The notes under the pieces are model-generated. The model searched no databases, had not been told where the DNA came from, and worked only from the letters and a program-made list of their open reading frames with translations. This document shows, in pieces, positions 25,755-41,848 of a stretch of DNA of 64,000 bases (positions within the stretch are counted from its first letter, which is position 1; every line of letters begins with the position of its first letter). The position numbers were made by a program, and so were the translations under genes. Source of the DNA: a virus; the IMG/VR virus record IMGVR_UViG_3300021375_000018, positions 23,119 through 87,118 of that record; one strand, written 5' to 3'.

Positions 25755-26921
25755 TTACGTTAGCTTGCCGTCTATAATAATTATTTTGTTTTTAAAATAT
25801 TCAAACCATTTATCGACAGCGGGTTTTACGTTTTCAATTAAACTTATTAAAACTTTATTAATGTTATCTTTTTTAAATTTGTTAAATTCTTCTTCGCTTT
25901 CAAGAATCTTAGTCAAATAATCTTCTTCTAAATGTAAACTTAAAAAATAATTACTATATTCATGATTTTTTTTATTTTCAACTATGTCTTGTAATTCTTT
26001 TCTGCTTACGTGAGTATTTTCTAAAAAATTTAATGCATCTTGCTCTGACATATATATAATTTGAGAATATACAGATGCTGAATTGTCACCTGTTAGAAAT
26101 GATTCTTCCATTCCTTTTACTTTAAAAAAACAATCAATTCCCTTATCTTCATGTTCTTCTGGATTGTTATCTGGCATCTTAACTTTATAATTATTTTTAT
26201 TTTTTTTAACTTGTCTAGCCAAAGTTCCAAAAAGATGCATAAAATCGTGAGAAAATAGCCACTTTAAAAAAGATTCTTGTGTATCTTCACTTAGCTTGCT
26301 AATTTTAAATAAACCTCCAGTTGAAGTTTCAAATTCATAGCTAAAGTAACTTGCGTGAATTGAAAGAAAGCAAGGAAGATCATCATCTTTACTTCCACAC
26401 ATTATACTTTTTATTTCGTTGAAAAAAGCTTCTAAGTCTTCTGTTATTTCTTTTTTTGAAAAGTAACCTTTTTGTAGACTAAATCTTAAGTCCCCGTAAG
26501 AAGAATCTTGTACATCACCATATTCATTAGGCTTACCAAGATCATATTCTTCATATTCTTCGTTATTAGAATCTTTGTAAAACTCTATAATATCTTTTTT
26601 TATTAAATTGTAATTAAATTCACTTTTTTCAAGAATATAAATATCCTCTCCCGTTATTGCGTTTTTTTTGTATATACTGTGCTTTTCATGTACGTTAGGA
26701 AAAACATTCTCTAATCTTGTTTGATAATTGTTATCTGGGACTGGAATAGTAATTAAGTGTGCAGGATAATTTAGATTTTTTAAAACACTTTTACCAAAAT
26801 CTGATATTTCACCTTCAAAGCCTTCACCTGCTCTAAACGAATGAATGCTTCTTTCACTAATAAAATTATTTCTCCACTCAATCAATAACTCTTTAAATTC
26901 TCTTCTACTCAACTTATTCAT
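25755..26921 (-). CDS. Targeting-peptide protein, EFKELLxEW family (388 aa)
   Basis: The N-terminus MNKLSRREFKELLIEW, followed by RNNFISE, is shared with genes at 31191, 32349, 33438 and 42986. It ends in an IxE site like those cleaved by the T4 prohead protease. The body is unrecognised. It shares with the 32349 protein a WLFSHDFMHLF segment (HDxxH) and a TGDNSASVYSQI segment, so these two are homologous beyond the leader. The ribosome site is AAGGATTATAA before ATG, conserved in the family. A head-packaged, possibly injected protein is my inference. Confidence 0.55.
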   Translation of the reverse strand: MNKLSRREFKELLIEWRNNFISERSIHSFRAGEGFEGEISDFGKSVLKNLNYPAHLITIPVPDNNYQTRLENVFPNVHEKHSIYKKNAITGEDIYILEKSEFNYNLIKKDIIEFYKDSNNEEYEEYDLGKPNEYGDVQDSSYGDLRFSLQKGYFSKKEITEDLEAFFNEIKSIMCGSKDDDLPCFLSIHASYFSYEFETSTGGLFKISKLSEDTQESFLKWLFSHDFMHLFGTLARQVKKNKNNYKVKMPDNNPEEHEDKGIDCFFKVKGMEESFLTGDNSASVYSQIIYMSEQDALNFLENTHVSRKELQDIVENKKNHEYSNYFLSLHLEEDYLTKILESEEEFNKFKKDNINKVLISLIENVKPAVDKWFEYFKNKIIIIDGKLT

Positions 26922-27015: not shown

Positions 27016-27795
27016 ATGGGAAGAAAAAGTAATAAAGTATTATTAACATGTATACATTGTAAAAAAGAATATAAAATTGCGCCGTCTAAAGCAAAAAGCT
27101 CTAAATTCTGCGCAAAAGAGTGTATGGACAATTCTAGAGATGAAAAAATTACTTACAAATGCAAAGTATGTAGCAAAGAATTTAAGTCAGGAAGACCTAA
27201 AACTTATTGTTCAAGAGTATGTTATGAAAAAGATGTTAAAAAAGAAAGAGTAGATTTGAAATGTCATAGCTGTGGTAAAGACTATAAAAAGCCAAAGGGC
27301 AGAGAAACAAAATATTGCAGCAGAGATTGCACGTTTATAGCTCAAAGTAGCGGTCTCGCTGATATACCTTCAAATGGTAGAAAAGGATTTAGAAAAGACT
27401 TAAACCCTAAGTACTTCTTTAAGTCTTCTTTAGAAGCTGACTATGCTAGATACTGTGATGCAATAGGCAAAAAGTACATTTATGAACACAAGACGTTTAA
27501 AGTTTCGTACGGAAACAAAGAAAAAGTTTATACTCCTGATTTTTATCATCCAGACGAAGACAAATACGTTGAAACAAAAGCAATTAGAAGAGATAGAAAA
27601 TTCAATTCAAACTTGTTAGCTGCTGATATTTTAAAGCAACAAGGTATTAATATTGACGTTGTTTTAATGGATGAATTTTATAGACTTATAAAACAAAGTG
27701 GTCATTACTGGCTAATCGACAATATTGAAAACAAAAACTATGATGGCACTAGACATCTAATATATTTAAAAAAGAAAGTTAATAGTAGTGTTTAA
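27016..27795 (+). CDS. Free-standing zinc-finger PD-(D/E)XK homing endonuclease
   Basis: The 259-residue protein has three Cys4 zinc fingers (CIHCKKEYK...FCAKEC, CKVCSKEFK...YCSRVC, CHSCGKDYK...YCSRDC) in residues 11-105. A nuclease domain follows: SSLEADYARYCDAIG supplies the Glu, and YTPDFYHP with KYVETKA gives PD...ExK. It is clearly paralogous to the endonuclease in the first dnaE intein gap (38365). No interrupted gene surrounds it, so it appears free-standing or orphaned. It borders the zone with repeated dnaE 5' copies. The AAAGGAGG site is strong. Confidence 0.82.
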   Translation: MGRKSNKVLLTCIHCKKEYKIAPSKAKSSKFCAKECMDNSRDEKITYKCKVCSKEFKSGRPKTYCSRVCYEKDVKKERVDLKCHSCGKDYKKPKGRETKYCSRDCTFIAQSSGLADIPSNGRKGFRKDLNPKYFFKSSLEADYARYCDAIGKKYIYEHKTFKVSYGNKEKVYTPDFYHPDEDKYVETKAIRRDRKFNSNLLAADILKQQGINIDVVLMDEFYRLIKQSGHYWLIDNIENKNYDGTRHLIYLKKKVNSSV

Positions 27796-28126: not shown

Positions 28127-28462
28127 TTATTTTTTCTTTTTAGCTTTTGATTTTTTTACACAAGCCCAAGGTTTAGAAGGCGTTGCAGAATTAACTCTTG
28201 CCATTGCCCATTGATGTTGTGTCATTCCGGGTCTACTTCCGCTTGTATAAAATGCAGCTAATCCTTTTCTATACTCTTGATAAACTGAACCGGGAGTAAG
28301 ACCTCTACTTTCAGCTTTCTTTTTTAAAGTAGCTTTTGTTTTAGCAGAAAGACCACCCGCTGATGATTTTCTTTGTGCAGCTTTTCTTTTCTTTTTTTTT
28401 TTTTTAGCTTCATCTAGTAAAGCTTCTTTAATAAATTCTTCTAATAAAATTAAATCTTCCAT
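28127..28462 (-). CDS. Basic internal-protein candidate with LLDEA leader (111 aa)
   Basis: The N-terminal LLEEFIKEALLDEA is nearly identical to that of the adjacent 28465 gene and resembles the capsid-targeting peptides of T4 internal proteins, with a cleavage-like LDE|A. The rest is extremely lysine-rich, with a conserved block YRKGLAAFYTSGSRPGMTQH and QWAMARVNSA that I associate with conserved phage proteins of unknown function. The cleaved product would be a small, very basic, DNA-binding-like protein. Confidence 0.6.
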   Translation of the reverse strand: MEDLILLEEFIKEALLDEAKKKKKKRKAAQRKSSAGGLSAKTKATLKKKAESRGLTPGSVYQEYRKGLAAFYTSGSRPGMTQHQWAMARVNSATPSKPWACVKKSKAKKKK

Positions 28463-28464
28463 TT

Positions 28465-28743
28465 TTAACTCTTTTTCGTATCATATCTAGGTGTGTTTGT
28501 CCAGCTTTTCTTTTTTCTTTCTTTTTCTTCTTGATCATCTCGAATTTTATACGAAAGTGCTCTTTTAGCTGGATCTTTACTTTTAGCAAGTTTAGTAGCT
28601 CTGTCTAATGTCTTTTTTCTTTTACCTTTAGCCTTATATTGACTTGGGTATTTATTAGACTTTTTTCTTTTCTTTTTTTTATTTTTAGCTTCATCTAGTA
28701 AAGCTTCTTTAATAAATTCTTCTAACAAAAATAAATTATTCAT
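28465..28743 (-). CDS. Basic internal-protein candidate with LLDEA leader (92 aa)
   Basis: The start MNNLFLLEEFIKEALLDEA duplicates the leader of its neighbour at DNA and protein level, while the remainder differs: a lysine/arginine-rich chain with DRATKLAKSKDPAKRALSYK. Two unrelated basic bodies behind one leader suggest that the leader is a portable signal. The gene lies 2 bases from the next antisense gene. Confidence 0.58.
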   Translation of the reverse strand: MNNLFLLEEFIKEALLDEAKNKKKKRKKSNKYPSQYKAKGKRKKTLDRATKLAKSKDPAKRALSYKIRDDQEEKERKKKSWTNTPRYDTKKS

Positions 28744-28761
28744 AATAACCTCTAAAAATAA

Positions 28762-29151
28762 TTATTTCTTTAATTTAGATTTATTTAATCTTTTTGTTTT
28801 TCTTTTTGAAGCTTCTTTTCTTTGTTTAGCATAGTCATACGCTCTTTTAAGACGAGCTTTTGTTTTTGGATCTTTTGCATTCTTATAAGCAGCTCTAACT
28901 CTTTGATGTATTAAATTTATAATTTGAGATTGTCTTACATGAGATTTTGATTTAAAAGACTTTTTTGATAAAGTTTTTCTGATGTCTGAAGCAGTTCTAA
29001 ATTTTACACTTACAGTATCTTTAGGATTTTCATCTGTATATAATCTTCTGGCGCTACCTTTTGGTTTTTTTCCAGTACCTGTTTTAGGATCACGCTTTTT
29101 CCTAACTTCGTACAATAAAACTTCTAAAATGTAGCTTTCTAGATTATTCAT
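28762..29151 (-). CDS. Conserved basic phage protein with LLYE leader (129 aa)
   Basis: The leader MNNLESYILEVLLYE is followed by a basic body with ARRLYTDENPKDTVSVKF, then FKSKSHVRQSQIINLIHQRV and a helical lysine-rich end. The RRLYTDENPKDT...RQSQIINLIHQR pattern looks like a well-conserved phage protein of unknown function. Leader and charge suggest a head-internal protein. It overlaps the start of the cupin-like gene by 4 bases. Confidence 0.6.
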   Translation of the reverse strand: MNNLESYILEVLLYEVRKKRDPKTGTGKKPKGSARRLYTDENPKDTVSVKFRTASDIRKTLSKKSFKSKSHVRQSQIINLIHQRVRAAYKNAKDPKTKARLKRAYDYAKQRKEASKRKTKRLNKSKLKK

Positions 29152-29435
29152 TTATATTTTTTAACCTCAATAATTAGTTTTGTTCTGTTTTTATTAATTA
29201 TTCTATGCCAAGTATAACTAGGTATTTTATAGACACTGTCATTAGACATTAAAACAGGCAGCTCATTGTCCATTTGTATGTACCACTCTTCACCTTCTTT
29301 TAAAATAATGTCTCTATCTTCTTTATCTCTATGCCAAACTAATTCTTTATCATCTAAGTTTTTATTAAATGTTCTTTCTACTAAAATAAAACTATTGTTT
29401 TCTTCTATTGATTTCTCTTCAAAAGGTAAATTCAT
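29148..29435 (-). CDS. Cupin-like small protein
   Basis: The 95-residue protein has a cupin-like beta pattern: LVWHRDKEDRDIILKEGEEW, then WYIQMDNELPVLM, then IPSYTWHRII with the second His. Similar small cupin-like proteins occur in T4-like phages without known function. It lacks the targeting leader of its neighbours, so it probably acts in the cell. Confidence 0.6.
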   Translation of the reverse strand: MNLPFEEKSIEENNSFILVERTFNKNLDDKELVWHRDKEDRDIILKEGEEWYIQMDNELPVLMSNDSVYKIPSYTWHRIINKNRTKLIIEVKKYK

Positions 29436-30050
29436 CTACCACCACCCAGGAATATTTCTTCCAAAAAGTTTTGTTAGTCTACAAGACCAATATCCAGGTT
29501 TAGTTTTGTCTTTCTTTTTACTGCACTGATGTCTGTCTCCAAAAGATTTTCTTCTTTTTTTATGGGCATCACTATCACCCATTGCTGAAGGCATTGAAGA
29601 TCCAAAAGTTACTTTTTTTACTTTCCTTGACCCGTCTTTATTTTTCTTGCCTGTATAAACATACACACAAGCTTTACCGTTTCCAATTCTTTTTGCGCCT
29701 TCTTTTCCAATCTTTACTTTTTTACCTTTGTATGTAGCTTCAAATACTAAATGTTCATCTTCGTACATAGGATAGTCAATAGGAACTAAATTACCTTCAT
29801 ACATATCAAAAACACCTACATCTAATTCTGATATATACATTTTATCTATATCATGACTTAGCTCTATCAATCCCTCATTATATAAAGATCTAGTTTCACT
29901 AAACAAATTAAAATATTTTTCTGATCCTCTTCTGTAAATGTTTGTACTTATTGGTATGTTTTCATTTATATGAAATCTTAGACCTTCTGAAAGAATATTG
30001 TTTTTATCTTTAATAACTTCTATTATATACTTTTCTATTATTTTAGACAT
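29436..30050 (-). CDS. Conserved phage protein with ILSE leader (204 aa)
   Basis: The N-terminus MSKIIEKYIIEVIKDKNNIL ends in LSE|G, a good candidate cleavage site. The C-terminal 80 residues carry a strongly conserved-looking basic block: KVTFGSSMPSAMGDSDAHKK, RRKSFGDRHQC, and KPGYWSCRLTKLFG. The two Cys and several His could bind zinc. A similar block (RRKxFRxRHxC...YWSC) appears in small virion-associated proteins of T4-like phages, so a structural or internal role is likely. Confidence 0.6.
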   Translation of the reverse strand: MSKIIEKYIIEVIKDKNNILSEGLRFHINENIPISTNIYRRGSEKYFNLFSETRSLYNEGLIELSHDIDKMYISELDVGVFDMYEGNLVPIDYPMYEDEHLVFEATYKGKKVKIGKEGAKRIGNGKACVYVYTGKKNKDGSRKVKKVTFGSSMPSAMGDSDAHKKRRKSFGDRHQCSKKKDKTKPGYWSCRLTKLFGRNIPGWW

Positions 30051-30102: not shown

Positions 30103-30141
30103 TAAAAAAACTAATTATAAAATTTATATAAAGGTTTGAAA

Positions 30142-31053
30142 ATGAATAGATTTGGTTACGCATGTATTAATATGGAGCTAAGAGAACAAGGTATATTTAA
30201 TTCTAGAACAATGCGCAAAAAAACATTCTTAGAAAAAGGCATAGCTTATGCTTCTCAGCTAGTGTTACAAAACGTAAAAGATATGATGCCTATATTTGAG
30301 TGGAATAATAAAAACAATGTAAAAGTATTTAGAATCTCTTCAGAAGTTACTCCTTGGGCCTCTGAGTATAAATTAAGTGATCTACCAGACTATGAAGAAA
30401 TATGTCATCACTTAAAAGTAGCAGGTGACTATACAAAACTTACAGGTCAAAGAATATCATTTCATCCTGGTCAATTTAATTGTTTAGCTTCAGAAAAAGA
30501 TCATGTAATTAAAAATAGCATAAAAGACTTAGAAATACATGGCAAACTTTTTGACTTAATGGGTATGGATAGAAATCATAACTCTAAAATAAATATTCAC
30601 TTAGGCTCAACTTGTGGTGGTAACTTAAAACTAGCAGCTGACAATTTTAATAAAAACTTTTTACTTCTTTCAGAAGCTGTTAGGTCTAGACTAACTGTAG
30701 AGAATGATGATAAACCTGCTATGTTTAGCTCGAAGTTTTTGTATGAAAACGTTTATAGAATTTCTAAAGTCCCAATTGTTTTCGACGCTCACCACTTCGA
30801 GATCGGGCCACAAGATGTTAATTATGAAGAAAGCTTTCAAATGGCTTACGATTCTTGGCCAAATGGTATACGTCCTACTTGTCATCACTCTAATGGCAAA
30901 AAAGAGTATGAGGACAGTTCAATTCGTTCAAAAGCAGCACATTCTAATTATTACTATAAACCTTTTAACAGTTGCGGAAAGTCAGTAGATGTTATGTTAG
31001 AAGCTAAAGCTAAAGAAAAAGCGCTTAAAAAGTATTTACATGACTTTGGTTAA
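30142..31053 (+). CDS. uvsE: UV damage endonuclease UvdE/UvsE
   Basis: The ATG at 30142 has AAAGG at the right distance; a TTG two codons upstream is less likely. The roughly 303-residue protein has the TIM-barrel metal ligands of this family: RISSEVTPWAS, SFHPGQFN, KINIHLGST, LTVENDD, VFDAHHFE, RPTCHHSNG and AAHSNYY. It nicks 5' of pyrimidine dimers and other lesions and starts repair. It sits inside the plastic zone but is intact, and has its own promoter. Confidence 0.9.
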   Translation: MNRFGYACINMELREQGIFNSRTMRKKTFLEKGIAYASQLVLQNVKDMMPIFEWNNKNNVKVFRISSEVTPWASEYKLSDLPDYEEICHHLKVAGDYTKLTGQRISFHPGQFNCLASEKDHVIKNSIKDLEIHGKLFDLMGMDRNHNSKINIHLGSTCGGNLKLAADNFNKNFLLLSEAVRSRLTVENDDKPAMFSSKFLYENVYRISKVPIVFDAHHFEIGPQDVNYEESFQMAYDSWPNGIRPTCHHSNGKKEYEDSSIRSKAAHSNYYYKPFNSCGKSVDVMLEAKAKEKALKKYLHDFG

Positions 31054-31056
31054 TAT

Positions 31057-31087
31057 GTGTAAATTAAATATTAATTAATTATAATAA
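31057..31087 (+). promoter_or_regulatory. Promoter copy 1 of the displaced dnaE 5' unit
   Basis: GTGTAAAT-N15-TATAATAA matches the family exactly. With the next 24 bases, including AAGAAAGG, it forms a unit repeated almost identically at 32215 and 36328. Confidence 0.65.
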
Positions 31088-31110
31088 ATAAAACAAGAAA
31101 GGTATATAAT

Positions 31111-31176
31111 TTGTCTATTGAGTTAATAACACCACCAAATAGATTCGTATCTCTTCACTCACACTCAACATTTAAA
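31111..31176 (+). pseudogene. Truncated copy 1 of the dnaE N-terminus
   Basis: From a TTG behind AAGAAAGG the frame reads MSIELITPPNRF and VSLHSHSTF, the start of the DnaE PHP domain (the HxHS metal motif), and then runs into unrelated sequence that is the antisense end of the next gene. The frame remains open to 31305, but only about 21 codons are dnaE-like. It seems to be an abandoned 5' end of dnaE. Confidence 0.6.
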
Positions 31177-31190
31177 AGTATAAATTTAAA

Positions 31191-32189
31191 TTATTTTCCA
31201 CCATTTAACTTTTTATATAATAAATTTAAATTTCTTTCTAATGATTCTTCTCTATTACCTACTTCAAATTCATCTAATTCGTTTTCATACTTACTAAAGA
31301 TATAACCTTTTTTAGATACTTCAACATCTAAATCATATGCTAAATCACAATCTTCAATAATACCTGATAATGCTTCATATAACGCTTCTAAATCTTCTTC
31401 TCTATTTGTACTAAAATTAAAAGGACTTACTTCTTCTAAATATTGAGACATAGTTGACATGTAAAATCTAGGAGTACTAAAAATTCTATCTCTACAGTCA
31501 ATAGTGTCAACTATTATTTCATGACTACTACTGAATATATTAAATATTCCTTTTCCTCTTTTTAATAATTCTGACATTTCTTTCGACTTCGGAACAAACC
31601 TTATTTCAAGTATATTGTCTACTTTACATGATGACAAGTCTTTCAAAGAGTCTTCAAGTTTAAACGAAAGATAATTGCTGTGTGATGACTCAGGTAAATA
31701 TAATGCCATATACCAATTATTATCGCTAATATTACCTTTATTTGTAATAGGAGTAATATTATGGATAGCTTTAAGCTGTAAGTCTATCATATAGTCATGA
31801 TAGTCTCTGTCAAGATTTTCTTGGTTGTCTAAATAGTCAGTATATTTTTTTTGATCAAAAAAGAAGTGATCTGGATCTTTAATACTTGGATCGACATAAT
31901 CTTTACTTTCTGCATCTAATTCGTTTTCTTCTGGTCTTGTAAGACTAAATCTTGTCATGTCATACCACCAAGTTGCGTATATAGATTTTCCACCACCACC
32001 ACCTCCTCGTCTTTTCTGTAATTCTCCATTGTTTCCTCCTCCACCACTGCCACTTTTCTTTAATTCATTTTCTATGGTATTGAAAAAGTAGGTTTGTTTT
32101 TCTTTTGACGAATCACGAAACTCATTAATAAAATTCTGTTTCCATTCAGTTAATAGTTCTTTAAACTCGCTTCTGTTTAGTTTACTCAT
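31191..32189 (-). CDS. Targeting-peptide protein, EFKELLxEW family (332 aa)
   Basis: The leader MSKLNRSEFKELLTEW, then KQNFINE, is almost identical to that of the 32349 gene. After it come two glycine-rich runs (about residues 47-70, SGSGGGGNN and GGGGGGKS), like flexible linkers, and then a 260-residue body of unknown function with acidic C-terminus. The body does not obviously match its neighbours, so the leader is the shared part. It is flanked on both sides by dnaE 5' copies. Confidence 0.55.
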   Translation of the reverse strand: MSKLNRSEFKELLTEWKQNFINEFRDSSKEKQTYFFNTIENELKKSGSGGGGNNGELQKRRGGGGGGKSIYATWWYDMTRFSLTRPEENELDAESKDYVDPSIKDPDHFFFDQKKYTDYLDNQENLDRDYHDYMIDLQLKAIHNITPITNKGNISDNNWYMALYLPESSHSNYLSFKLEDSLKDLSSCKVDNILEIRFVPKSKEMSELLKRGKGIFNIFSSSHEIIVDTIDCRDRIFSTPRFYMSTMSQYLEEVSPFNFSTNREEDLEALYEALSGIIEDCDLAYDLDVEVSKKGYIFSKYENELDEFEVGNREESLERNLNLLYKKLNGGK

Positions 32190-32214
32190 TTATAATCCTT
32201 TGTAATTTTAATAT

Positions 32215-32245
32215 GTGTAAATTAAATATCAATTAATTATAATAA
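32215..32245 (+). promoter_or_regulatory. Promoter copy 2 of the displaced dnaE 5' unit
   Basis: The GTGTAAAT-N15-TATAATAA element is intact and followed by about 2.7 copies of a 15-base AT-rich repeat not present in the other copies. Confidence 0.6.
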
Positions 32246-32283
32246 ATAAAAAACAAATAAATAAAAAACAAATAAATAAAAAC
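32240..32283 (+). repeat. 15-base AT-rich tandem repeat in promoter copy 2
   Basis: The unit AAATAAATAAAAAAC recurs with 15-base spacing between the -10 box and the ribosome site. It lengthens this leader relative to the copies at 31057 and 36328. Confidence 0.6.
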
Positions 32284-32299
32284 AAGAAAGGTATATAAT

Positions 32300-32404
32300 T
32301 TGTCTATTGAATTAATAAAACCACCCGATAGATTTGTCCCATTTTTATCTATCCATGCGAGTATGTTTGAAGTAATATTTTATCTTCTAAAAAGCTTCCA
32401 ATAA
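32300..32404 (+). pseudogene. Truncated, diverged copy 2 of the dnaE N-terminus
   Basis: A TTG behind AAGAAAGG begins MSIELIKPPDRFVPFLSIHA, matching MSIELITPPNRFV of the other copies, then degenerates and stops after 34 codons. Its tail overlaps the antisense gene 32349-33341. This is the most diverged copy, so perhaps the oldest. Confidence 0.55.
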
Positions 32405-33341
32405 AGTTGTAACACATGTGTACTTTACTAAAAAACAGTTTTAAATATTCTATATCTTCTTGAGAAATTTCTGACACAATGCTTGAGCATTGATTTAAAA
32501 AAGCTTCTATTCCTTTTTCGTTATTTGGCAAAGACCTTATATGGTGTGCTACGCTTGCAAAGTTATCACCATCTCCTACACTGCTGCCTAATCTTGTCAA
32601 ACCGTCAGCTGACTGCCCGCCGGCGGCACCTTCTACAACAAATTTTTTAATGATCATGTTTAGATTCTTTTTATTATTAAATAAATCATTAAGCTCGATA
32701 TAAGGCGCAAAACTTTCGTTGGCAAGTATATCTTCAAAGTAGTGAAAGACATCATGCTTTAATTCCCATTGTAAGTGACTCTTCCACACTTTTTGATCAG
32801 AAATATTAAGTATATTGTTGATCGATCCACTAGCCATTTCATCAACCATATTAATCATTCTAGGGAAGTATATCATGAGACCAACATTGTCGCTAGCTAA
32901 TCTTTGCAAGTCTCTTTTTGACTGGGCTATTTGGTCTTTTATGTTTTGTTTTTTTTCTTCAACCTTTACGTTATTCATACTCATATCTTTATAAAACAAA
33001 TTCTCTTTGTTAAGAAGATCATTGAAAACTAAATCTAATATCTCTAGAATCTCTGTAATACTATTTTTATGAAGAATAATGCTACTTTCGTAGGCTTTGT
33101 AAACACTTTTGCTCCTAGACATAACATCATGCATAAAACTACCGAATGTATGCTCACTTATAGAAAAATCTCCGATAGCATACAAATTTAAATCAATTGG
33201 GACTTTTTTGACATAATCTTTTTGTGTAGGCGTTAACCCTTTAAAATCAACTAAATTTGTATTGACAGTTCTTTCATTTATAAAGTTTTGTTTCCATTCA
33301 GTTAACAACTCTTTAAATTCTTTTCTACTTAACTTGCTCAT
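32349..33341 (-). CDS. Targeting-peptide protein, EFKELLxEW family (330 aa)
   Basis: The leader MSKLSRKEFKELLTEW, then KQNFINE|RT, gives an IxE site. The body contains LQWELKHDVFHYFEDIL, whose HDxxH pattern matches HDFMH in the 25755 protein, and VGDGDNFASVAHHI, which matches its GDNSASV segment. The two are therefore distant paralogues. HDxxH might bind a metal, but no third ligand is clear. Its antisense 3' end overlaps a dnaE 5' relic. Confidence 0.55.
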   Translation of the reverse strand: MSKLSRKEFKELLTEWKQNFINERTVNTNLVDFKGLTPTQKDYVKKVPIDLNLYAIGDFSISEHTFGSFMHDVMSRSKSVYKAYESSIILHKNSITEILEILDLVFNDLLNKENLFYKDMSMNNVKVEEKKQNIKDQIAQSKRDLQRLASDNVGLMIYFPRMINMVDEMASGSINNILNISDQKVWKSHLQWELKHDVFHYFEDILANESFAPYIELNDLFNNKKNLNMIIKKFVVEGAAGGQSADGLTRLGSSVGDGDNFASVAHHIRSLPNNEKGIEAFLNQCSSIVSEISQEDIEYLKLFFSKVHMCYNFIGSFLEDKILLQTYSHG

Positions 33342-33383
33342 TTGTAATCCTTAGTAATTTTTATACGTGTGATTAAATATTAT

Positions 33384-33437
33384 TTAATTCATTTCAGTTA
33401 ATAACTCTTTAAATTCTCTTCTGCTTAACTTGTTCAT
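33384..33437 (-). pseudogene. 17-codon orphan leader of the EFKELLxEW family
   Basis: The reverse strand reads MNKLSRREFKELLTEMN and stops. It is preceded by the family ribosome-site sequence (AAGGATTATAA), which here overlaps the end of the next gene. It is a leader without a body, next to a degenerate GTGTGATT element at 33367 that looks like the remnant of another dnaE promoter copy. Confidence 0.6.
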
Positions 33438-36302
33438 TTATAATCCTTGGTAACTTATTATTTCTTTAATATATCTTTCTAGCAAAATTTTAGAATTTTC
33501 TAAATATTTAACTTCTATTAAATTTAAATTTTTAAGAGCTTTTTCAAGATTTATTCTATTCTTTTTAATAGACATTCCTTTTTCACTACTAATCAAAGAA
33601 TTATAAAAAGTTATCATTGATTTTGTTGATATATCTAATTTAGATAAAATATCCAACGACGTTCTGCCCCTGTGATTAACATTAGAATTGTATTCAAGTT
33701 TTTCATACATTTCAACAACAATCTTATTTAATAAAGACTTGTTAGCTAATTTTACAAATTCATTTGAAATTTCAGGTATCTCTAGCATTTTATATGTTTT
33801 ATTTATATACATCAAATCATGATAAACAAAAGAAGGACCTCTTCCTTTTTTAGGTAGTGTATTTCTAATTATATACAAATAATTTTCTGTAGAAGTGTAA
33901 TCATATTCTAAGAAAAACTTTATACTATCATAATCTGACGTTTTTAAATTTTTAATAATATTTTTTTGTTGATTATGATTAATTAATATTTTGTTTTGAC
34001 TTATGACGCCTACCAGGATATTCATTGCATGCTTTGTTATTTTTATTTTTTTCATTCTATTAATAATATTATTAATTAAAAGAACAATGACACTGTCATC
34101 TATATCTAAAGACTCACGTAATGTATATAAGTCAAAAATAACTGTTGTAAGCTTTTTCTCTGAATTAGCATTTAAAGATAAAGAATTAAGTAACTCAATA
34201 TTATCTGACATGTTTTTTTCTAATTTACTCTTTTTTTCTTCTGGCAATAAATGTTTAAAATTGCTAGTAAAGTATAGAATACAATAACTATTTTTATCAT
34301 TTGAATTTTGATCCTCTTCAGCAATGCTATGTTTTTTAGGAAGTTTGTTGCTCTTTATATTAGCATCAAGCGAATCAATTTGTTCTAAGAAATCATAAGT
34401 TGCATTTACAAGTTTTTTCATGTAGATACTATCTGTATTTAGAAAACTAATTATTGGACCGTCTTCATTAAAAAATCTATATGATGAATAAAGTAGACTA
34501 AAAAGTCTTTCAATGTCTGATGTAATTTTTAATTTTTTTAATCTAGCCTTGTCATTTAAAATGACAAATAGCTCATAAAATGATTTTGTTGGGTCAATAT
34601 TTTGTTCATCATCACTTTTTAATATTTTTAATACTTCAGATACACTTCCATAAAAATCGTGGTCTGGAGATTCAAAATAAGTTAATAGTTCTTCATATTC
34701 TTCATAACTTTCTTGCTTTACTTTGTTTAAGTAATTAATAGAATAGTCTAATTTCTTTAAACTAGAATTGTTTGTCAAAAGACTCATGTTGTATTCTTTG
34801 TCAAATTCTTCAGGAAATTTTTCTACAAGAGCTTTGGTGTATTCTATATTTTTTATTATAATTTTTTTAATTTCATCGTATTCGTGTTTAACTAAAAATG
34901 ATAAGAGACTTAAGCTTTTATCAATTTCAATTAAATCTTTTCTACGAGACAAACTTTTAGATGAAGCCCTATCTTTTTTAATTGTCTCAATAACATCTTG
35001 ATTAAAGCTCTCAATTTTTGCTCTATCTATAATGAGACTTCTAATTTTAATATTTTTATCTTCTATTAAAACTTCTACAACATATTCATAAATATCATCG
35101 TCCATTAAATGCATATTGTATACTAGTGCTTGTCTAATGTAAACATTCTCGTCATCACAAGAGTAAACTATAATTTTATTTCTATCTCTAGAATGTCTAA
35201 TTATCATATTAAATTGTTGTACGAATTCTGATGGGTTTTCTTGTACTCTTCTTGTATTTACGTATGCTTCAAAGCTTACTGTTTTAAGGTAAGCAATGTA
35301 GTCAAAATCTTTTTTTTCTGGAAGCTTGGAGTTTTCTTCGATTATGTTAAAAACATTTCCTAATGTAGATTTAAACCACTCAATATCTCTTGAGCTATTG
35401 TTACCGTCAACGCACATGTATGGTTGTTTATTTCCAGCAAATTCTATTCTATTGTTTAATTTAACAAATGATAAACAAAGCTTTCTTTTAGAAAATTCTT
35501 CTTTTTGTATTTTGTCACCTTTTTCTAAAGAATTAAACTCATTTAAATCATCAAAGCTTTTAAACTTTTTAATTGCATAGTACATGTGCATATTGCCTGA
35601 TTTAAATTGTAAAAATGCATTTGCGCCTTCAGAAGAAGTACACCAAGTCATTTTTTTTGTAAGTTTACCGTAACCGGTTATAGCTGTTTTATCGTATACT
35701 AACTCTTTTCCTATATATACACTTCTAGCTAATATTTTTGATGCAAATTGTTTATTTGGATAAAATACTATCCAGTCATTATCTTCATATATTAATTCAA
35801 AAATATTGCTTTTTTTTGAATATGATTGCTTAAATTCTTTAGATAATACATCTTGTGTTTTCTTACTTGATAAACCGGATTTTTCTCTTCTAACATTTAA
35901 CCATGAAATAATATCTTGATACGTTGCTGTTTGCGCTGGATCATTATGACCTTTATTAAAATTTAACTTTTCATTTAAATCATGTTTAGTTCCATCACTT
36001 AGTTCTATTACTAAGTCTTCTGTCCTATTTCTTTTAGATAAAATATGTGTTTTATATTCTTCGTATAACAATATAAATTCTTCAACGCCGTGTATATCTC
36101 CTGAATTGTAAGAATTAATTATTATAGCATTAAAATAAACATCTTGAAGTTTTCCTAATCTACTTTTATTAATATTAAATTCATTATAGATTTCTTCATC
36201 TAAATTTAATTTTAAATCTTTTTCTGAAGCCTCAGAAAGAATTAAAAAATCTTTCCAGTCTATTAAAATCTTTTTAGCTTCTTTTCTGTTTAGTTTGCTC
36301 AT
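33438..36302 (-). CDS. Large targeting-peptide protein with WCTS domain (954 aa)
   Basis: The leader MSKLNRKEAKKILIDW, then KDFLILSE, is the most diverged of the family. Residues about 100-330 share a domain with the 42986 protein: NDWIVFYPNKQFA, ARSVYIG, KMTWCTSSEGANAF, MHMYYAI, KLCLSF and YMCVDGNN. The remaining 600 residues are helical and repeat-like, without the clear repeat unit of the 42986 protein. The WCTS domain looks globular with conserved polar residues; I do not know its activity. Confidence 0.6.
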   Translation of the reverse strand: MSKLNRKEAKKILIDWKDFLILSEASEKDLKLNLDEEIYNEFNINKSRLGKLQDVYFNAIIINSYNSGDIHGVEEFILLYEEYKTHILSKRNRTEDLVIELSDGTKHDLNEKLNFNKGHNDPAQTATYQDIISWLNVRREKSGLSSKKTQDVLSKEFKQSYSKKSNIFELIYEDNDWIVFYPNKQFASKILARSVYIGKELVYDKTAITGYGKLTKKMTWCTSSEGANAFLQFKSGNMHMYYAIKKFKSFDDLNEFNSLEKGDKIQKEEFSKRKLCLSFVKLNNRIEFAGNKQPYMCVDGNNSSRDIEWFKSTLGNVFNIIEENSKLPEKKDFDYIAYLKTVSFEAYVNTRRVQENPSEFVQQFNMIIRHSRDRNKIIVYSCDDENVYIRQALVYNMHLMDDDIYEYVVEVLIEDKNIKIRSLIIDRAKIESFNQDVIETIKKDRASSKSLSRRKDLIEIDKSLSLLSFLVKHEYDEIKKIIIKNIEYTKALVEKFPEEFDKEYNMSLLTNNSSLKKLDYSINYLNKVKQESYEEYEELLTYFESPDHDFYGSVSEVLKILKSDDEQNIDPTKSFYELFVILNDKARLKKLKITSDIERLFSLLYSSYRFFNEDGPIISFLNTDSIYMKKLVNATYDFLEQIDSLDANIKSNKLPKKHSIAEEDQNSNDKNSYCILYFTSNFKHLLPEEKKSKLEKNMSDNIELLNSLSLNANSEKKLTTVIFDLYTLRESLDIDDSVIVLLINNIINRMKKIKITKHAMNILVGVISQNKILINHNQQKNIIKNLKTSDYDSIKFFLEYDYTSTENYLYIIRNTLPKKGRGPSFVYHDLMYINKTYKMLEIPEISNEFVKLANKSLLNKIVVEMYEKLEYNSNVNHRGRTSLDILSKLDISTKSMITFYNSLISSEKGMSIKKNRINLEKALKNLNLIEVKYLENSKILLERYIKEIISYQGL

Positions 36303-36327
36303 TTATAATCCTTAGTAATTTTTATAT

Positions 36328-36358
36328 GTGTAAATTAAATATTAATTAATTATAATAA
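36328..36358 (+). promoter_or_regulatory. Promoter copy 3 of the displaced dnaE 5' unit
   Basis: GTGTAAAT-N15-TATAATAA, followed by AAAAAAGG and the third dnaE-like start. The 60 bases from here are nearly identical to copy 1. Confidence 0.62.
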
Positions 36359-36382
36359 ATAAAAACAAAAAAGGTATATAAT

Positions 36383-36496
36383 TTGTCTATTGAATTAATA
36401 ACACCACCAAATAGATTTGTATCTCTTCACTCACACTCAACTTTTTTAAAACTTAGTATGTTATTTTGGGAAGGCAAATTAAATACGTGTAAATAA
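36383..36496 (+). pseudogene. Truncated copy 3 of the dnaE N-terminus
   Basis: From a TTG the frame reads MSIELITPPNRF and VSLHSHSTF, then 16 unrelated codons, and stops at 36496 inside the promoter of the present dnaE. It breaks at the same codon (HSHSTF) as copy 1. Confidence 0.6.
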
Positions 36497-36517
36497 CAAT
36501 ATTATATTTTATAATAA
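36487..36517 (+). promoter_or_regulatory. Promoter of the present dnaE, GTGTAAAT-N15-TATAATAA
   Basis: Exact family match, 34 bases before the ATG at 36551. The upstream box lies inside the last codons of relic copy 3. Confidence 0.68.
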
Positions 36518-36550
36518 ACCATAATTTAAATAATCTACATAAGGAATAAA

Positions 36551-38326
36551 ATGAATAATACATTTAATACGGAAAGGAGGTATCTAGAGAAGGTTGAACT
36601 TGAACTGCTTACACCTAACAGATTTGTTAGCTTGCATTCGCATTCAACCTTCTCGTAGATATCTACGTTTGATGGATTAGGTTATCCAGCAGATCACATC
36701 AACTTTGTTCTTTCTGAATCTCAAGGTATGGATGCTTGGGCTTTAACAGATCATGGAAACGGCAACGGTCTTGCTCATGCTCATTCACATGCTGTTAAAA
36801 TGCAAAAGAAAGGTCAAAAGTTTAGACAAATCTACGGTGTTGAATTCTATTTTGTACCTTCTCTAGAACAATGGTCAAAAGAATACTCAGATCATCGTCA
36901 AGCAGTCAAAGATGCAAAAACAGCAGCAGCTGCTGAAAAGAAATCAAAAGAAAAAGTTGATATCGATGCTGATGATGAAAGTGGTGGTTTAGTTATTGAA
37001 GACGAAGAAGAAACAAAGAAAATCGATATCCTTAAAGATGAATGGAAACGACGTTATCACCTTGTAGTCACTGCACGCAATAGAAAAGGCTTAAACAATC
37101 TTTTTACTCTTGTTAAGAAATCATATAAATATGGATTCTATCGATATCCTCGAATTGACTTTAAAATGTTAAAAGAACACGGTGAAGGTCTTCATGTATC
37201 AACAGCATGTTTAGGCGGACTTTTTAGCAATAGAATTCTAAGAGGTAATGCTCACAATAAATCACGTGATGAAATACAAAAAGATCTTCTAAACTTAACA
37301 GATAGATTTACAGACGCAGTTGGTTTAGAAAACTTTAAACTAGAACTACAATTTAACAAACTTAATAAGCAACACATTGTCAATGATTATTTGATAGAAC
37401 ATCATAAGCTAACAGGTATTCCATTGATATCTACAGCAGACTCACACTATCCAACAAATGATAAATGGCAAGCAAGAGAACTATACAAGAAACTTGGATG
37501 GTTAGGAAAAAAAGATGGAATGACTTTACCTACATTTGAAGATCTTAAATGTGAGTTATATCCAAAAAATGCACAACAAATGTGGGATGAGTTTTTAGAA
37601 TCATATCCTCTATATGATTTCTATAAAGGTAACGAAGAACTAGTCAAAGAATCAATTGAAAGAACACATGATATTGTATGGGAAAACTTTGAAGATACAT
37701 GGATCGATGTAGGTGCAAAACTACCTACGATATCAATTCCTAATAAAACGCCATTTCAGCACTTATGTGATTTAGTTAAAAGTGCTTTAATCAAAGAAGA
37801 ACTTCATAGTAATAAAGAATACGTTGAACGCGCAAAGTATGAATTATCTGATATTAAATACTTAGGCCATGCAGCTTATTTTATTACAATGTATGAGATC
37901 TTTAAAAAAGCTGAAACAAAGACTTTATTTGGAGCAGGACGTGGATCAGGTGCAGGTAGCTTAGTTAATTATCTTTTAGGTATTACTCAAATTGATCCGA
38001 TACCTTACAACTTACTTTGGAGCAGATTCTTAGGTAGACATAGATGTTTGGATGAAGACATATACATAATGTCTGAAAGTGGTAAAAAGAAACTTAAAGA
38101 TGTTGTTGAAGGCGAAAAAGTATTAACACATACAGGACAATATCAAAGAATTCTTGACAAAGCTGTGACACAACATGACATGGCAATTGAAATAAAGTTT
38201 AATGGTCGCAATATTATTTGTTCTCCTAATCATAGATGGATTATTAATCGCGATGGCGCCGAAGTAGAAACGATGGCATGTCACTTAAAAAAAGGTGACA
38301 AACTTATAAAAAATATACATACTTGA
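36551..38326 (+). CDS. dnaE: DnaE (DNA polymerase III alpha) part 1 plus N-half of split intein 1; in-frame TAG near start
   Basis: The ATG at 36551 has AAGGA upstream and reads 35 codons, ending RFVSLHSHSTFS, the first PHP metal motif. A TAG at 36656-36658 then interrupts; after ATA TCT the frame continues in register as TFDGLGYPADHINF. The PHP domain goes on (ALTDHGNGNGLAHAHSHA, YGVEFYFVP, STADSHYPTND) and the polymerase begins (FGAGRGSGAGSLVNYLLG). After GRHR, 38045-38326 encode an N-intein: CLDEDIYIMSESGKKKLKDV (block A) and IICSPNHRWII (block B), ending at a normal stop. Without bypass or readthrough only a version lacking the first PHP motif could be made, for example from ATG 36728, which has a poor ribosome site. 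Confidence 0.82.
36581..36661 (+). promoter_or_regulatory. Long stem-loop and stop-containing palindrome in dnaE 5' end
   Basis: TATCTAGAGAAGGTTGAA at 36581-36598 is complementary to 36643-36661 with one bulged G, giving an 18-bp stem and a 44-base loop that encodes LLTPNRFVSLHSH. The 3' arm overlaps a perfect 14-base palindrome, CGTAGATATCTACG (36654-36667), which holds the in-frame TAG. A perfect AAGGAGGT anti-ribosomal site lies just before the stem (36574-36581). Structure in exactly this place suggests translational control or recoding, or it may be the scar of a rearrangement. Confidence 0.6.
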
Positions 38327-39400
38327 TATAGTTAATCCAAGAAAACATTTCCGGAGAAAGTTTTATGGAAGAAAAAGAATATCGAAAAAATATTAGCTGC
38401 AAAAACTGTAAGATAGAATTTATTGTAAGATTTAAAATGTCAGATCAAGGTTCTATTGCAAAGTGCAATAAACTATATTGTAGTAAATTATGCAAAAAAG
38501 AATATCTTAAAAAAAATGGTACAAGTAATTCTATAGAACTTGTGTGTAGATATTGCAAATGCACTTACTATAAGCCTGAATCACTTTCAAAAAACTCAAA
38601 ATTCTGTAGTAGAGTTTGCCAAAATAGAAGTTATGCCAGTAGAAACAAGAAAGAAAAAAAGAACATTAATTGTAAAAACTGCAATAAAACTTTTATTGTT
38701 ATAGAAAACTCTAAAAGAAAGTACTGCAGTCATGAATGTAGTCATGCTGGACAAAAAGGCAAGACAAAAATATTTACATGTGCAGTCTGCAAGGAAGAAA
38801 AGCACATACTTGAAAATGACAATAGGATGTATTGTGGTAGAAATTGCCAGTATAAGGCACAGTCTTTAGGTTTAATTAAGATTCCAACAAAAGGAAGATC
38901 AGGTTATAGAACTGATTTGCCTGATGATATGCGTTTTAAAAGTTCACTTGAAGCAGACTATGCAAGATTTTTAAAATATAAAAAAATAGACTTTAAATAT
39001 GAAAGTAAGTGCTTTGAGCTTATTGACAAAGGTAAAATAAGAAGATATACACCAGACTTTTACATAGAAAAAGAAGGCTTATATGTTGAATTAAAAGCAG
39101 GTAGAAAAGACAAGAAATACTCTAAAAATTTAGAGTGCGTGCAATTAGTAAAAAATATTGGTTACAATATAAAAGTAATATACATGTCGGAATTTTATGA
39201 CATGCTTAAGAAAGAAAAATTATATGAGGAGATTCCAAACATTGAAAGACGCAACTACAAAAAGTCAAGACACCTTATACGAAATTGAAGAAATTAATTT
39301 TGTTCACTATACTCGAGATATGATTGATATTGAAGTAGAAGGTGATCACACTTTCTATATTTCAGAAAATCCTGACGCTGATTTTGTTTTGACACATAAT
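38045..39400 (+). mobile_element. Split intein 1 of dnaE with endonuclease gene in the gap
   Basis: The element consists of the N-intein (38045-38326, 94 codons, Cys1), a free endonuclease gene (38365-39288) and the C-intein (39242-39400, about 53 codons, ending VLTHN). The flanking exteins join as GRHR then TSWPDIDTD, placing the intein just before the catalytic Asp motif of the polymerase. This matches the 'fractured gene' arrangement of split inteins with an endonuclease gene in the break. Residues needed for trans-splicing (Cys1, block B His, terminal His-Asn, +1 Thr) are all present. Confidence 0.85.
38365..39288 (+). CDS. Homing endonuclease, four zinc fingers plus PD-(D/E)XK domain
   Basis: The 307-residue protein has its own GGAGAAAG ribosome site and four Cys4 fingers (CKNCKIEF...YCSKLC, CRYCKCTY...FCSRVC, CKNCNKTF...YCSHEC, CAVCKEEK...YCGRNC) in residues 11-165. 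The nuclease part has SSLEADYARFLKYK, YTPDFYIEKEGLY and VELKAGRKDKK, giving E...PD...ExK. It is paralogous to the 27016 protein. It lies between the halves of intein 1 and would cut intein-free dnaE, driving homing. Its 3' end overlaps the start of the C-intein ORF by 47 bases. Confidence 0.85.
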   Translation: MEEKEYRKNISCKNCKIEFIVRFKMSDQGSIAKCNKLYCSKLCKKEYLKKNGTSNSIELVCRYCKCTYYKPESLSKNSKFCSRVCQNRSYASRNKKEKKNINCKNCNKTFIVIENSKRKYCSHECSHAGQKGKTKIFTCAVCKEEKHILENDNRMYCGRNCQYKAQSLGLIKIPTKGRSGYRTDLPDDMRFKSSLEADYARFLKYKKIDFKYESKCFELIDKGKIRRYTPDFYIEKEGLYVELKAGRKDKKYSKNLECVQLVKNIGYNIKVIYMSEFYDMLKKEKLYEEIPNIERRNYKKSRHLIRN

Positions 39401-40894
39401 ACAAGCTGGCCAGACATTGATACTGATGCAGGTGATAGAGATGAACTAATAAATGCTGCAAGAGAATTATATGGTAACGATGCTGTTATCCCAGTTTCAA
39501 ACTTCAACACTCTTAAGCTTAAGTCTCTTGTCAAAGATATTGCAAAGTTTTATGATATTCCTTTTGACGAAGTCAATAAAGTCACAGGACCTTTACAAGA
39601 ACAAGTCATGCAACTTGCTATGGATAAAAATCAAGAAAAGTCTGTATTTGTTTTAAAACATGAAGATTGTATGAAATATTCAGTTGAATATAATGAGTTT
39701 ATGACAAAGTATCCAGAAGTTGCTGAACATGTTGAAACTCTGTTTATGCAAAACAGAGCTATTGGTAGACATGCTGGAGGTGTTATAATAGCAGATGCTG
39801 ATAAGCTTGAACAATCAATGCCAATTGTTGGTGTTCGAGGTGAATTACAAACACCCTGGACTGAAGGTATGAACTTTAGAAATCTTGAAGATAATGGCTT
39901 TCTTAAGTTTGATTTCTTAGGATTAACACTGCTTAAAGATGTAGAAAATTGTATTTATCGTATTCTTAAAAAGAAGGGTAATGAAAATCCAACATTTTTA
40001 GATGCAAGATCTTTCTTTGACAAACATTTAAATTGTAGATACGTTAAACAAGATGATCTTAAAGTTTGGGAACACGTTTATAAAAATGGTAGATTTTGTG
40101 GAATATTTCAATTTACTGCTCCTGGCGCTAGAAATTTTGCAATAGAAGCTGAACCTGATTCTATTGAGGAATTGGCTGCGCTAACTGCGATTTATCGTCC
40201 GGGACCACTTAAAGCAAATGTCCATAAGAAATATGTTAAGGCTAAAAGAAATGTTGCAGACATCAAGTATGATCACCCTATCATTGAAAAGATACTAGGC
40301 CCAACATACAACTATGTAGTATTTCAGGAACAATTTATGTTATTGGCTCAAGAGCTAAGTGGCTTTAATCCTGGTGAAGCTGATAAACTTAGAAAAACAT
40401 TAGTTAAAAAATCATTAGATACACTTCATTCTAAAGGATCAGAGAAAGCAATTGCTAGAGAAAAGTTTATAAAGGGTGCTAAAGAGTTGAACGACGTTCC
40501 CGAGCACATATCGTCTAAGTTATGGGCAGACATAGAAAACTTCGCGGTTTACGGCTTTAATAAAAGTTTACTGTTTAATACTTTAGTAGATACTTATGAT
40601 TATAATGGAAATTATTTAGAAACAAAGGAGATTAAAGATGTTATTCCTGGGGTTTATGTTAAGTCAAGAGACGAAGAAACAAAAGAAGATATCTTTACAC
40701 AAGTATTGGCAAATCATGATCATGGAGAAGTGCCAACTTTTAAGATTACATTGGAGGATGGACAAAGTGTTGAATGTACAATGCATCATAAGTTTAGAGT
40801 TGAAGATGGAAGGATGTTGCCGCTATGGTACATAATACAAGAAGATCTTTCGATTGTGTGTGTGGAAAAAGTTTTGCAAACAACTCCAGTTTAA
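39242..40894 (+). CDS. dnaE: DnaE part 2, with C-half of intein 1 and N-half of split intein 2
   Basis: I chose the TTG at 39242, with GAGGAG ten bases upstream. Codons 1-53 are the C-intein (block F IDIEVEGDHTFYISEN, block G VLTHN). The extein then runs TSWPDIDTDAGDRDEL, the polymerase active site, through NRAIGRHAGGVIIADAD, TAIYRPGPLKANVHKKYV, VVFQEQFMLLAQELSGF to ENFAVYGFNK. From 40565 an N-intein begins with Ser: SLLFNTLVDTYDYNG (block A-like), FKITLEDGQSVECTMHHKF (block B) and a C-terminal tail to the stop at 40894. The polypeptide therefore needs splicing at both ends. Confidence 0.87.
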   Translation: MKDATTKSQDTLYEIEEINFVHYTRDMIDIEVEGDHTFYISENPDADFVLTHNTSWPDIDTDAGDRDELINAARELYGNDAVIPVSNFNTLKLKSLVKDIAKFYDIPFDEVNKVTGPLQEQVMQLAMDKNQEKSVFVLKHEDCMKYSVEYNEFMTKYPEVAEHVETLFMQNRAIGRHAGGVIIADADKLEQSMPIVGVRGELQTPWTEGMNFRNLEDNGFLKFDFLGLTLLKDVENCIYRILKKKGNENPTFLDARSFFDKHLNCRYVKQDDLKVWEHVYKNGRFCGIFQFTAPGARNFAIEAEPDSIEELAALTAIYRPGPLKANVHKKYVKAKRNVADIKYDHPIIEKILGPTYNYVVFQEQFMLLAQELSGFNPGEADKLRKTLVKKSLDTLHSKGSEKAIAREKFIKGAKELNDVPEHISSKLWADIENFAVYGFNKSLLFNTLVDTYDYNGNYLETKEIKDVIPGVYVKSRDEETKEDIFTQVLANHDHGEVPTFKITLEDGQSVECTMHHKFRVEDGRMLPLWYIIQEDLSIVCVEKVLQTTPV

Positions 40895-41802: not shown

Positions 41803-41827
41803 ATTAATATTAAATATTATATTATAA
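41797..41827 (+). promoter_or_regulatory. Phage promoter, GTGTAAAT-N15-TATTATAA
   Basis: Its upstream box overlaps the stop codon of the endonuclease gene. It gives the third dnaE fragment its own transcription start. Confidence 0.6.
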
Positions 41828-41848
41828 AACAAAAAAGAAAGGTTGATA

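Follow-up and report, generated by a model that had tools for sequence, protein, structure and literature searches.

A homing-type nuclease cassette within dnaE, combined with a programmed translational bypass which resembles that of T4 gene 60 and mobA in a very compact form, is the probable explanation for an in-frame stop codon near the beginning of the polymerase gene in the viral record IMGVR_UViG_3300021375_000018. The window, i.e., the whole stretch of DNA analyzed here, comprises 64,000 nt (positions 23,119 to 87,118 of that record). The anatomy of the cassette, empty and filled alleles and their patchy distribution, synonymous recoding, a conserved and covarying stem and the frame logic around the stop were directly observed in the window and its relatives. 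Besides the bypass itself, our reading of these sequences would entail cleavage of empty alleles by the nuclease and immunity of recoded alleles. The features concerned are, on the plus strand throughout:

36318-36445: relic 3, the former dnaE promoter and 5' end, now displaced and broken behind HSHSTF, the insertion point of the putative cassette
36446-36482: scar of the deleted nuclease gene, its left end (TTAAAACTTAGTATG) fused to the last codons (FWEGK)
36482-36550: promoter-like stretch and ribosome site from the cassette (repeat D4; same layout in L014, L018, L019, L022, L039, L046 and L073)
36551-36655: new recoded dnaE 5' end, 35 codons, the last being the predicted take-off codon UCG
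36573-36580: internal Shine-Dalgarno-like AAAGGAGG at the stem base (in 12/12 aligned type I and 7/7 type II loci)
36578-36598: 5' arm of the 21-bp stem
36615-36630: inner hairpin with covarying pairs
36643-36664: 3' arm of the stem, which has one bulge (36655) and contains stop and gap
36656-36664: coding gap TAG ATA TCT, consisting of the in-frame stop (36656-36658) and the following bases with the predicted landing codon UCU
36665-38326: body of dnaE with PHP domain and polymerase start (PF02811, PF07733), followed by a probable N-terminal split-intein half (weak PF14890, below cut-off)

The working dnaE begins with ATG at 36551, and its recoded 5' end reads MNNTFNTERRYLEKVELELLTPNRFVSLHSHSTFS. 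An earlier, sequence-only reading of this DNA treated the gene as normal and overlooked its different, recoded 5' end and the in-frame TAG inside a long inverted repeat. Behind TAG ATA TCT the polymerase frame resumes 9 nt on, in frame, with TFDGLGYPADHINF, and removal of the gap restores HSHSTFS-TFDGLGYP, where intact alleles read HSTFSTFDGLGYP. The site broken by the insertion is the metal-site motif of the PHP domain (HxHSTF/S..DG, broken at the slash). Twelve recoded codons (NRFVSLHSHSTF) specify the same peptide as relic 3, nine of them being changed synonymously (12/36 nt) with no amino-acid change. Purifying selection acts on the codons flanking the gap, with a pN/pS of 0.21 before and 0.09 after it in 11 loci; among the 20 codons between the gap and about the first downstream ATG, 11 columns varied only synonymously and eight showed amino-acid changes, which were mostly conservative. 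In all 12 aligned loci of this kind (type I) the predicted take-off codon, UCC or UCG, is directly followed by UAG. The type I gap comprises 9 nt (UAG RUA UCU), the take-off codons match the landing codon UCU by wobble, and the frame after the gap resumes at ACG, ACU, ACA or GUA. A reassigned TAG and a phage suppressor tRNA were both rejected as explanations, since TAG terminates 8 of the 60 ORFs of the window and no tRNA gene was found in the whole record. An assembly error was likewise dismissed on account of the same features in 20 contigs.

A second type of the element (type II) is present in seven contigs with far more divergent DnaE, shows a recoded start unlike that of type I and carries TAA as stop. 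The DnaE of phages which keep a stop at this same position is about 42% identical to that of the window. The gap in type II amounts to 10 nt, UAA UGG UGC C or UAA UGG AAC C, and follows UCC, so that UCC and then UAA were found in 7/7 loci; the landing codon would be GCC or ACC, matching UCC in two of three bases, and the frame resumes at AUU. When exactly its 10 nt are taken out, L080 reads HAHSGFSIFDGLGYP, identical to the intact L085. The three element variants of type II are 86-94% identical, compared with 65-75% in their 3' flanks and 38-52% in their 5' flanks. A nuclease gene lies directly upstream of the element in L169, L170, L174 and L176 and encodes 267 aa where complete (in L174 the end portion alone was read). 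Its product passes the cut-off of PF05367 (Phage_endo_I) and shares 36% identity with the type I nuclease described below. In L051, L053 and L080 no such nuclease was detected directly upstream of the element. A dnaE relic (MTERVKSVIPFVNLHGHSTFSI) with the break HSTFS-I precedes the nuclease in L170, L174 and L176, that is in three of the four nuclease-bearing type II loci, and none was found in L169. Judged from their sequences, types I and II are alike in having AAAGGAGG at the stem base, a covarying stem, a homologous nuclease and a relic with its break at the same position.

The recoded segment is predicted to form a stem of 21 bp that has a bulge of one nucleotide and carries the inner hairpin. 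Folding energies of five type I loci ranged from -35.6 to -41.9 kcal/mol (z -5.3 to -6.6), those of four empty alleles gave z of -0.1 to -1.8, and a type II stretch lacking its stem base reached z -3.4. The outer stem of type I was 100% paired in nine distinct rows, with slid controls pairing at most 42%. One outer and two inner pairs of type I were changed on both sides, a number of three that was reached by 29 of 500 shuffles, and this support is moderate because most stem positions are invariant. Covariation is stronger for the type II stem, where 87/87 cells of the three variants were paired. Pairing was retained in each of its five variable pairs, in three of them by double changes, two of which lie inside the gap. 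The motif AAAGGAGG occupies the 5' base of the stem in every element, at a linear distance of about 75 nt upstream of the gap. A 5' stem-loop upstream of take-off which could re-form behind the ribosome, as known from bypass, is part of each element.

Intact versions of the type I cassette were recovered from relatives. A complete ORF of 302 aa for the nuclease is situated between a HSHSTF or HAHSTF relic and the recoded start in L014, L018, L021, L022, L046 and L062, and in L019 the gene is cut by the contig end. Wherever a relic was found in type I loci besides the window, it ends at the same codon (6/6). The scar in the window was recognized by its left end, which is alike in L014, L018, L046 and L073, and by its last codons, which are those of nuclease-bearing loci; L033 displays a similar scar. 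A full copy of the nuclease is absent from the whole record of the window, no trace of it was seen beside the element in L024, L055 and L070, and the whole records of L055 and L070 contain no nuclease match. Hence the recoded start was kept without nuclease in 5 of 13 type I contigs (the window and four others). In L039 (about 5000-5400) the first half of the nuclease has been replaced, apparently by a minus-strand gene, and the bypass segment is intact.

The type I nuclease matched endonuclease and Holliday-junction-resolvase families of PHROG (E to 3e-18) as well as, for protein P0003, a homing-endonuclease family (E 7.5e-8), and conserved E, PD and ExK positions were found, which we take to be a PD-(D/E)XK site. 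This identity is one of profiles; the AlphaFold model (pLDDT 41) was unusable. A homing-type ORF adjoining its target, as is typical of homing endonucleases, is indicated by the PHROG matches and, for the type II partner, by PF05367.

Other nuclease-like genes occur in the window. A free-standing one of the same domain type is located at 27016-27795 and has relatives of 40-78% identity in many fetched loci. Farther downstream dnaE is split twice more, at 38050-42925, by probable split inteins with weak intein profile matches, and nuclease-like genes lie between the probable intein halves at 38365-39288 and 40825-41802; the former shares the C-terminal domain of the cassette nuclease (42% over 74 aa).

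The distribution of the cassette was surveyed by a search with the N-terminal part of DnaE, which yielded 52 relatives, with 5' ends listed for 44. When these were compared for empty sites, 33 of the 44 listed relatives proved to be unbroken through the motif, nine carried type I (TAG) and two type II (TAA). Together with L039, L062, L070 and the window, the nine make up 13 readable type I contigs; L021 and L022 are identical at the locus, and L068 is cut off by the contig end. In viral_contigs a pattern of the 3' arm matched 12 stretches, each of which lies in one of these type I contigs. A gapped scan added L169, L170, L174 and L176 to L051, L053 and L080, giving seven type II contigs, and 21 of its 38 stretches were chance matches elsewhere that lacked the frame logic. 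The element pattern produced one chance match in genome_contigs, in which the hairpin was absent, a distant blastn of the element against named phages gave no match, and none of 80 more distant DnaE loci was interrupted (three checked by pattern script, 77 as translations by eye). A break of the DnaE match near residue 175 in L038, L039, L040, L042 and L043 is suggestive of another insertion or an intein.

Mobility of the element is indicated by comparison with the gene it occupies. The 114-nt elements of the window, L014 and L055 are 100% identical, compared with 81-87% in the downstream dnaE, and the three fall into separate well-supported groups of the dnaE tree. In this tree of 39 rows (12 filled, 27 empty), presence of the element needs eight changes, at least six of which are forced by starred branches. 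It was calculated from 510 columns, with 16 of 55 candidate rows omitted (15 too diverged or incomplete, one too short), and it was used in place of a first tree with long branches, which was set aside because insertions in dnaE had distorted it. Filled and empty alleles, patchily arranged on the gene tree, are the pattern characteristic of homing.

In the proposed mechanism a free-standing homing-type nuclease cassette would insert within the metal-site motif of the PHP domain. Because the insertion severs dnaE from its start, the cassette would carry a replacement, composed of promoter-like stretch, ribosome site, ATG and synonymously recoded first codons and joined to the resident gene, and the old 5' end would stay upstream as a relic. 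The joint carries a gap of 9 nt (type I) or 10 nt (type II) opening with a stop codon, and the recoded codons would fold into a long hairpin, the 3' arm of which holds take-off codon, stop and gap. The ribosome would halt with Ser-tRNA on UCC or UCG in the P site and UAG or UAA in the A site, and the peptidyl-tRNA would detach. As the mRNA exits the channel, the hairpin would re-zip behind the ribosome and pull it 9-10 nt forward; the tRNA would then re-pair with UCU in type I, or in type II with bases two and three of GCC or ACC, and translation would resume to give a DnaE of normal length. Since the upper stem starts leaving the exit channel with UCC or UCG in the P site, a slide of 9-10 nt would add stem pairs. 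At an exit distance of 13 nt the calculated gain was 0 for L024 and -1.2 to -6.1 kcal/mol for seven other elements, values which cover the fold of exposed mRNA only and depend on the assumed exit distance; the modelled sign would fit a bypass and the size is uncertain. In the window the nuclease is deleted and the putative bypass segment remains, as in four other contigs. One coding segment would then serve as repaired gene start, nuclease-resistant allele and RNA spring over the scar of the cassette.

In both types one protein is encoded across a gap that ordinary decoding cannot cross, and by the frame logic no single conventional decoding event would read both gaps, whereas skipping them would. 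Nevertheless, some features speak against a bypass: the landing codon matches the take-off codon in type I only, the placement of the Shine-Dalgarno-like motif is unlike that in T4, the energy gained by re-zipping varies with the exit distance assumed, and the outer stem of type I is mostly invariant, with covariation on few pairs. Alternatively, the hairpin and the internal Shine-Dalgarno-like motif might stimulate readthrough of the type I stop and, in type II, +1 frameshifting, which would leave three extra residues after HSTFS. The type I frame is indeed unchanged after TAG, both types would gain three residues, and the motif beside the stem resembles recoding stimulators; in addition, the DnaE loop of a sister group is one residue longer (HSVAGSxFDG), and because one extra residue is tolerated there an insertion of three is possible on length alone. 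However, the 10-nt gap of type II introduces an offset of +1 and therefore plain readthrough cannot work, so that two different decoding events would be needed for homologous cassettes of one layout. Moreover, the bases of the gap track the 5' arm of the stem by compensatory changes and do not preserve a tripeptide, removal of the gap restores the product of intact alleles exactly, and the record, as stated, yielded no tRNA gene, all of which makes readthrough and frameshifting quite unlikely. It is still less probable that the 35-codon ORF is a leader and the hairpin an initiation switch that brings AAAGGAGG near an unusual start codon after the gap. AUU, which can act as a rare start codon, is where type II resumes, and the motif sits exactly at the 5' stem base in all elements, but the codons at which type I resumes (ACG, ACU, ACA or GUA) do not fit, and the HxH metal ligands would be missing from the product, even though exactly that peptide is preserved in the leader, with synonymous recoding and a low pN/pS.

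That the 5' end of dnaE is a broken pseudogene and the phages survive with a truncated or dead DnaE might be concluded from the in-frame stop and from the whole or half loss of the nuclease in 6 of 13 type I contigs. It is very improbable, given that the same stop and stem were retained in 13 + 7 contigs from many samples, that the codons directly after the gap are under purifying selection, and that the stop persists at one position where DnaE is about 42% identical to that of the window. Excision of the 9-10 nt from the mRNA by RNA processing, in place of skipping by the ribosome, appears just as improbable: the gap lies between the bulge and the stem base, but no intron core or known splicing motif was seen by eye, and the gap forms one strand of a helix, an arrangement which to our knowledge no self-splicing class uses. 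Furthermore, a stop directly after the take-off codon is a hallmark of bypass according to two accounts (PMC5009743; PMC3014915). The bypass of a homing cassette thus remains the reading we prefer.

Upstream of the cassette, fragments of the dnaE start alternate with antisense genes:

30136-31053, plus strand: UvdE-like UV endonuclease gene (PF03851, E 2.1e-49), left neighbour, its stop abutting relic 1
31050-31174, plus strand: relic 1, consisting of promoter, ribosome site and TTG start of dnaE with the codons to HSHSTF (repeat comparison)
31191-32189, minus strand: antisense gene A, 332 aa, with EFKELLxEW-type N-terminus
32205-32338, plus strand: relic 2, promoter and start as in relic 1, dnaE codons to PPDRFV (repeat comparison)
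32349-33341, minus strand: antisense gene B, 330 aa, with a 43% identical relative upstream of dnaE in L046
about 33385-33456, minus strand: truncated copy of the shared N-terminus (MNKLSRREFKELLTE) and upstream region (repeat family D2 and direct reading)
33438-36302, minus strand: antisense gene C, 954 aa, with relatives at 42986-44902 and in L015, L018 and L046

The sequence-only reading had described three units that share promoter, ribosome site and TTG start, two of them reaching HSHSTF and breaking at the same codon. These were confirmed at 31050-31174, 32205-32338 and 36318-36445, far above chance expectation: in the coding part of 84 nt, identity to copy 1 amounts to 95% for copy 3 and 74% for copy 2, the match of copies 1 and 3 ends directly after HSHSTF (21 codons), and that of copy 2 ends after 13 codons (PPDRFV). 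Its statement that an antisense gene of the EFKELLxEW type follows each unit is right as to the type, as genes A, B and C all begin with such an N-terminus, and holds for copies 1 and 2, behind which lies an antisense 3' end, but not for copy 3, where the working dnaE comes next. Copies 2 and 3 are divergent from genes A and C, respectively, and adjoin their starts. Likewise, insertion at the dnaE 5' end, with the old end abandoned and a new one supplied, was borne out for copy 3 and was also seen in relatives, with the nuclease cassette and not the antisense genes as the element. The EFKELLxEW genes were rejected as the mobile element at copy 3, since they have no nuclease domain and the nuclease cassette explains the break. 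An integrase-like rebuilding of the target end found no support either: no integrase-like gene was seen, the Pfam and PHROG matches of ten proteins around the site include no recombinase domain, and no att-type core common to the left and right cassette ends was visible by eye.

Orphan copies of the dnaE promoter and start also occur to the left of dnaE in L016, L017, L026-L028, L034 and L073, in L017 immediately behind a UvdE-like C-terminus recognized by eye. Because these copies have other break points (2, 3, 4, 13, 18 and 21 codons across loci), the array is neither ancient nor fixed, contrary to one possibility that had been raised; another, functional leader peptides, is unsupported.

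Genes A, B and C together with 25755-26921 and 42986-44902 share a short N-terminus and little else, and the start of gene B sits at the fourth, truncated fragment of N-terminus and promoter at about 33385-33456. A search with the shared N-terminus gave 21 matches in 12 sources, copies included. Gene A has no Pfam or PHROG family match, and its relatives among the fetched loci were matched by the first 23 residues only. In the C-terminal half of 42986-44902 a string of repeats of about 30 residues (VDPSGEIIRQLA...NIANRxDLL) was noticed. In our reading, relics 1 and 2 are likely by-products of antisense genes being shuffled or recombined through the common divergent dnaE promoter, each gene thus inserted or recombined bringing along a divergent dnaE promoter of its own and a small number of dnaE codons. 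Copy 1 might, faintly, be a relic of nuclease insertion too, because the same break codon and a short AAAA..GTAT junction are kept. For relics 1 and 2 alone, the proposal that the antisense genes are site-specific elements which target and rebuild the dnaE start has gained something from the orphan starts in relatives and from six listed loci (L010, L011, L015, L016, L020 and L034) in which a gene start of the EFKELLxEW type stands beside an intact dnaE promoter. We consider it unlikely, however, in view of the differing break points, the lack of a nuclease or integrase domain in A, B and C (Pfam, PHROG) and the restriction of gene A's likeness to 23 residues; recombination through the common promoter and start suffices, and a special enzyme is unneeded.

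The internal-protein genes of T4 provide a possible model for the antisense genes, as they undergo modular shuffling: unrelated genes with a common short N-terminus and promoter vary between phages. As in T4-type internal head proteins, an N-terminal peptide is shared among otherwise unrelated proteins, as gene A exemplifies. The divergent promoter in the window differs in also bearing the dnaE start, and because of this dnaE 5' fragments were duplicated. PF03420 (T4-type prohead protease) and PF07230 were silent in the record, as they were in the controls. A run of small minus-strand genes at 28127-30050, several of them lysine-rich and with an N-terminus such as LLEEFIKEALLDEA, possibly encodes packaged DNA-binding proteins.

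Among known systems, the closest likeness is to T4 (gene 39-mobA-60.1-gene 60), where a nuclease of the homing type interrupts an essential replication gene at a catalytic motif and the 3' part has a non-coding gap near its start with the stop directly after the take-off codon (PMC5009743; PMC3014915; annotation and sequence of T4). The 5' stem-loop is proposed there to pair as the mRNA leaves the ribosome, pulling the mRNA and starting the slide (PMC5009743). PMC3014915, a 2010 review which raises the question of other bypass cases in related phages, cites a study that states in its title that minimal pairing can suffice. The differences are considerable: the target is a topoisomerase in T4 and the PHP domain of dnaE here, the gap measures 50 nt there and 9-10 nt here, and mobA encodes an HNH nuclease, compared with the Phage_endo_I/PD-(D/E)XK type of the cassette. 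Furthermore, the dnaE cassette brings a complete recoded start, so that the gene stays whole and the old start becomes a relic, and its element is one long hairpin built of the coding segment itself and exists as two sequence types in 20 contigs. Free-standing seg and mob homing endonucleases of T4-like phages share with it a nuclease beside a conserved gene, present and absent alleles and a co-converted flank (PMC2988022); unlike in their intronless homing, the dnaE cassette lies inside a coding sequence and has a replacement 5' end and a recoding hairpin.

The same dnaE, with nuclease-like genes of the same C-terminal domain between its probable intein halves, also recalls the split-intein nuclease arrangements ('fractured genes') reportedly described by Dassa and colleagues in 2009. 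Those are resolved by protein splicing; the dnaE cassette, in contrast, would be resolved at the level of translation. No description of a bypass in phage dnaE was found in the literature searched, which consisted mostly of papers available without subscription.

T4 gene 60 is the one well-studied natural programmed bypass in phages and bacteria. On balance we favor, with some reserve, the view that a family of mobile homing cassettes spreads among phages carrying its own ribosome-bypass module. If true, this would be a compact second bypass system, located in a replicative polymerase, and because variants, empty alleles, nuclease-less survivors and covarying stems exist, the roles of stem zippering, stop, landing match and internal Shine-Dalgarno-like motif could be tested comparatively. 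The notion that homing genes take bypass sequences along with them would likewise gain support, and with two types and homologous nucleases at one dnaE codon, bypass would be a recurrent strategy of homing elements and not an oddity of T4.
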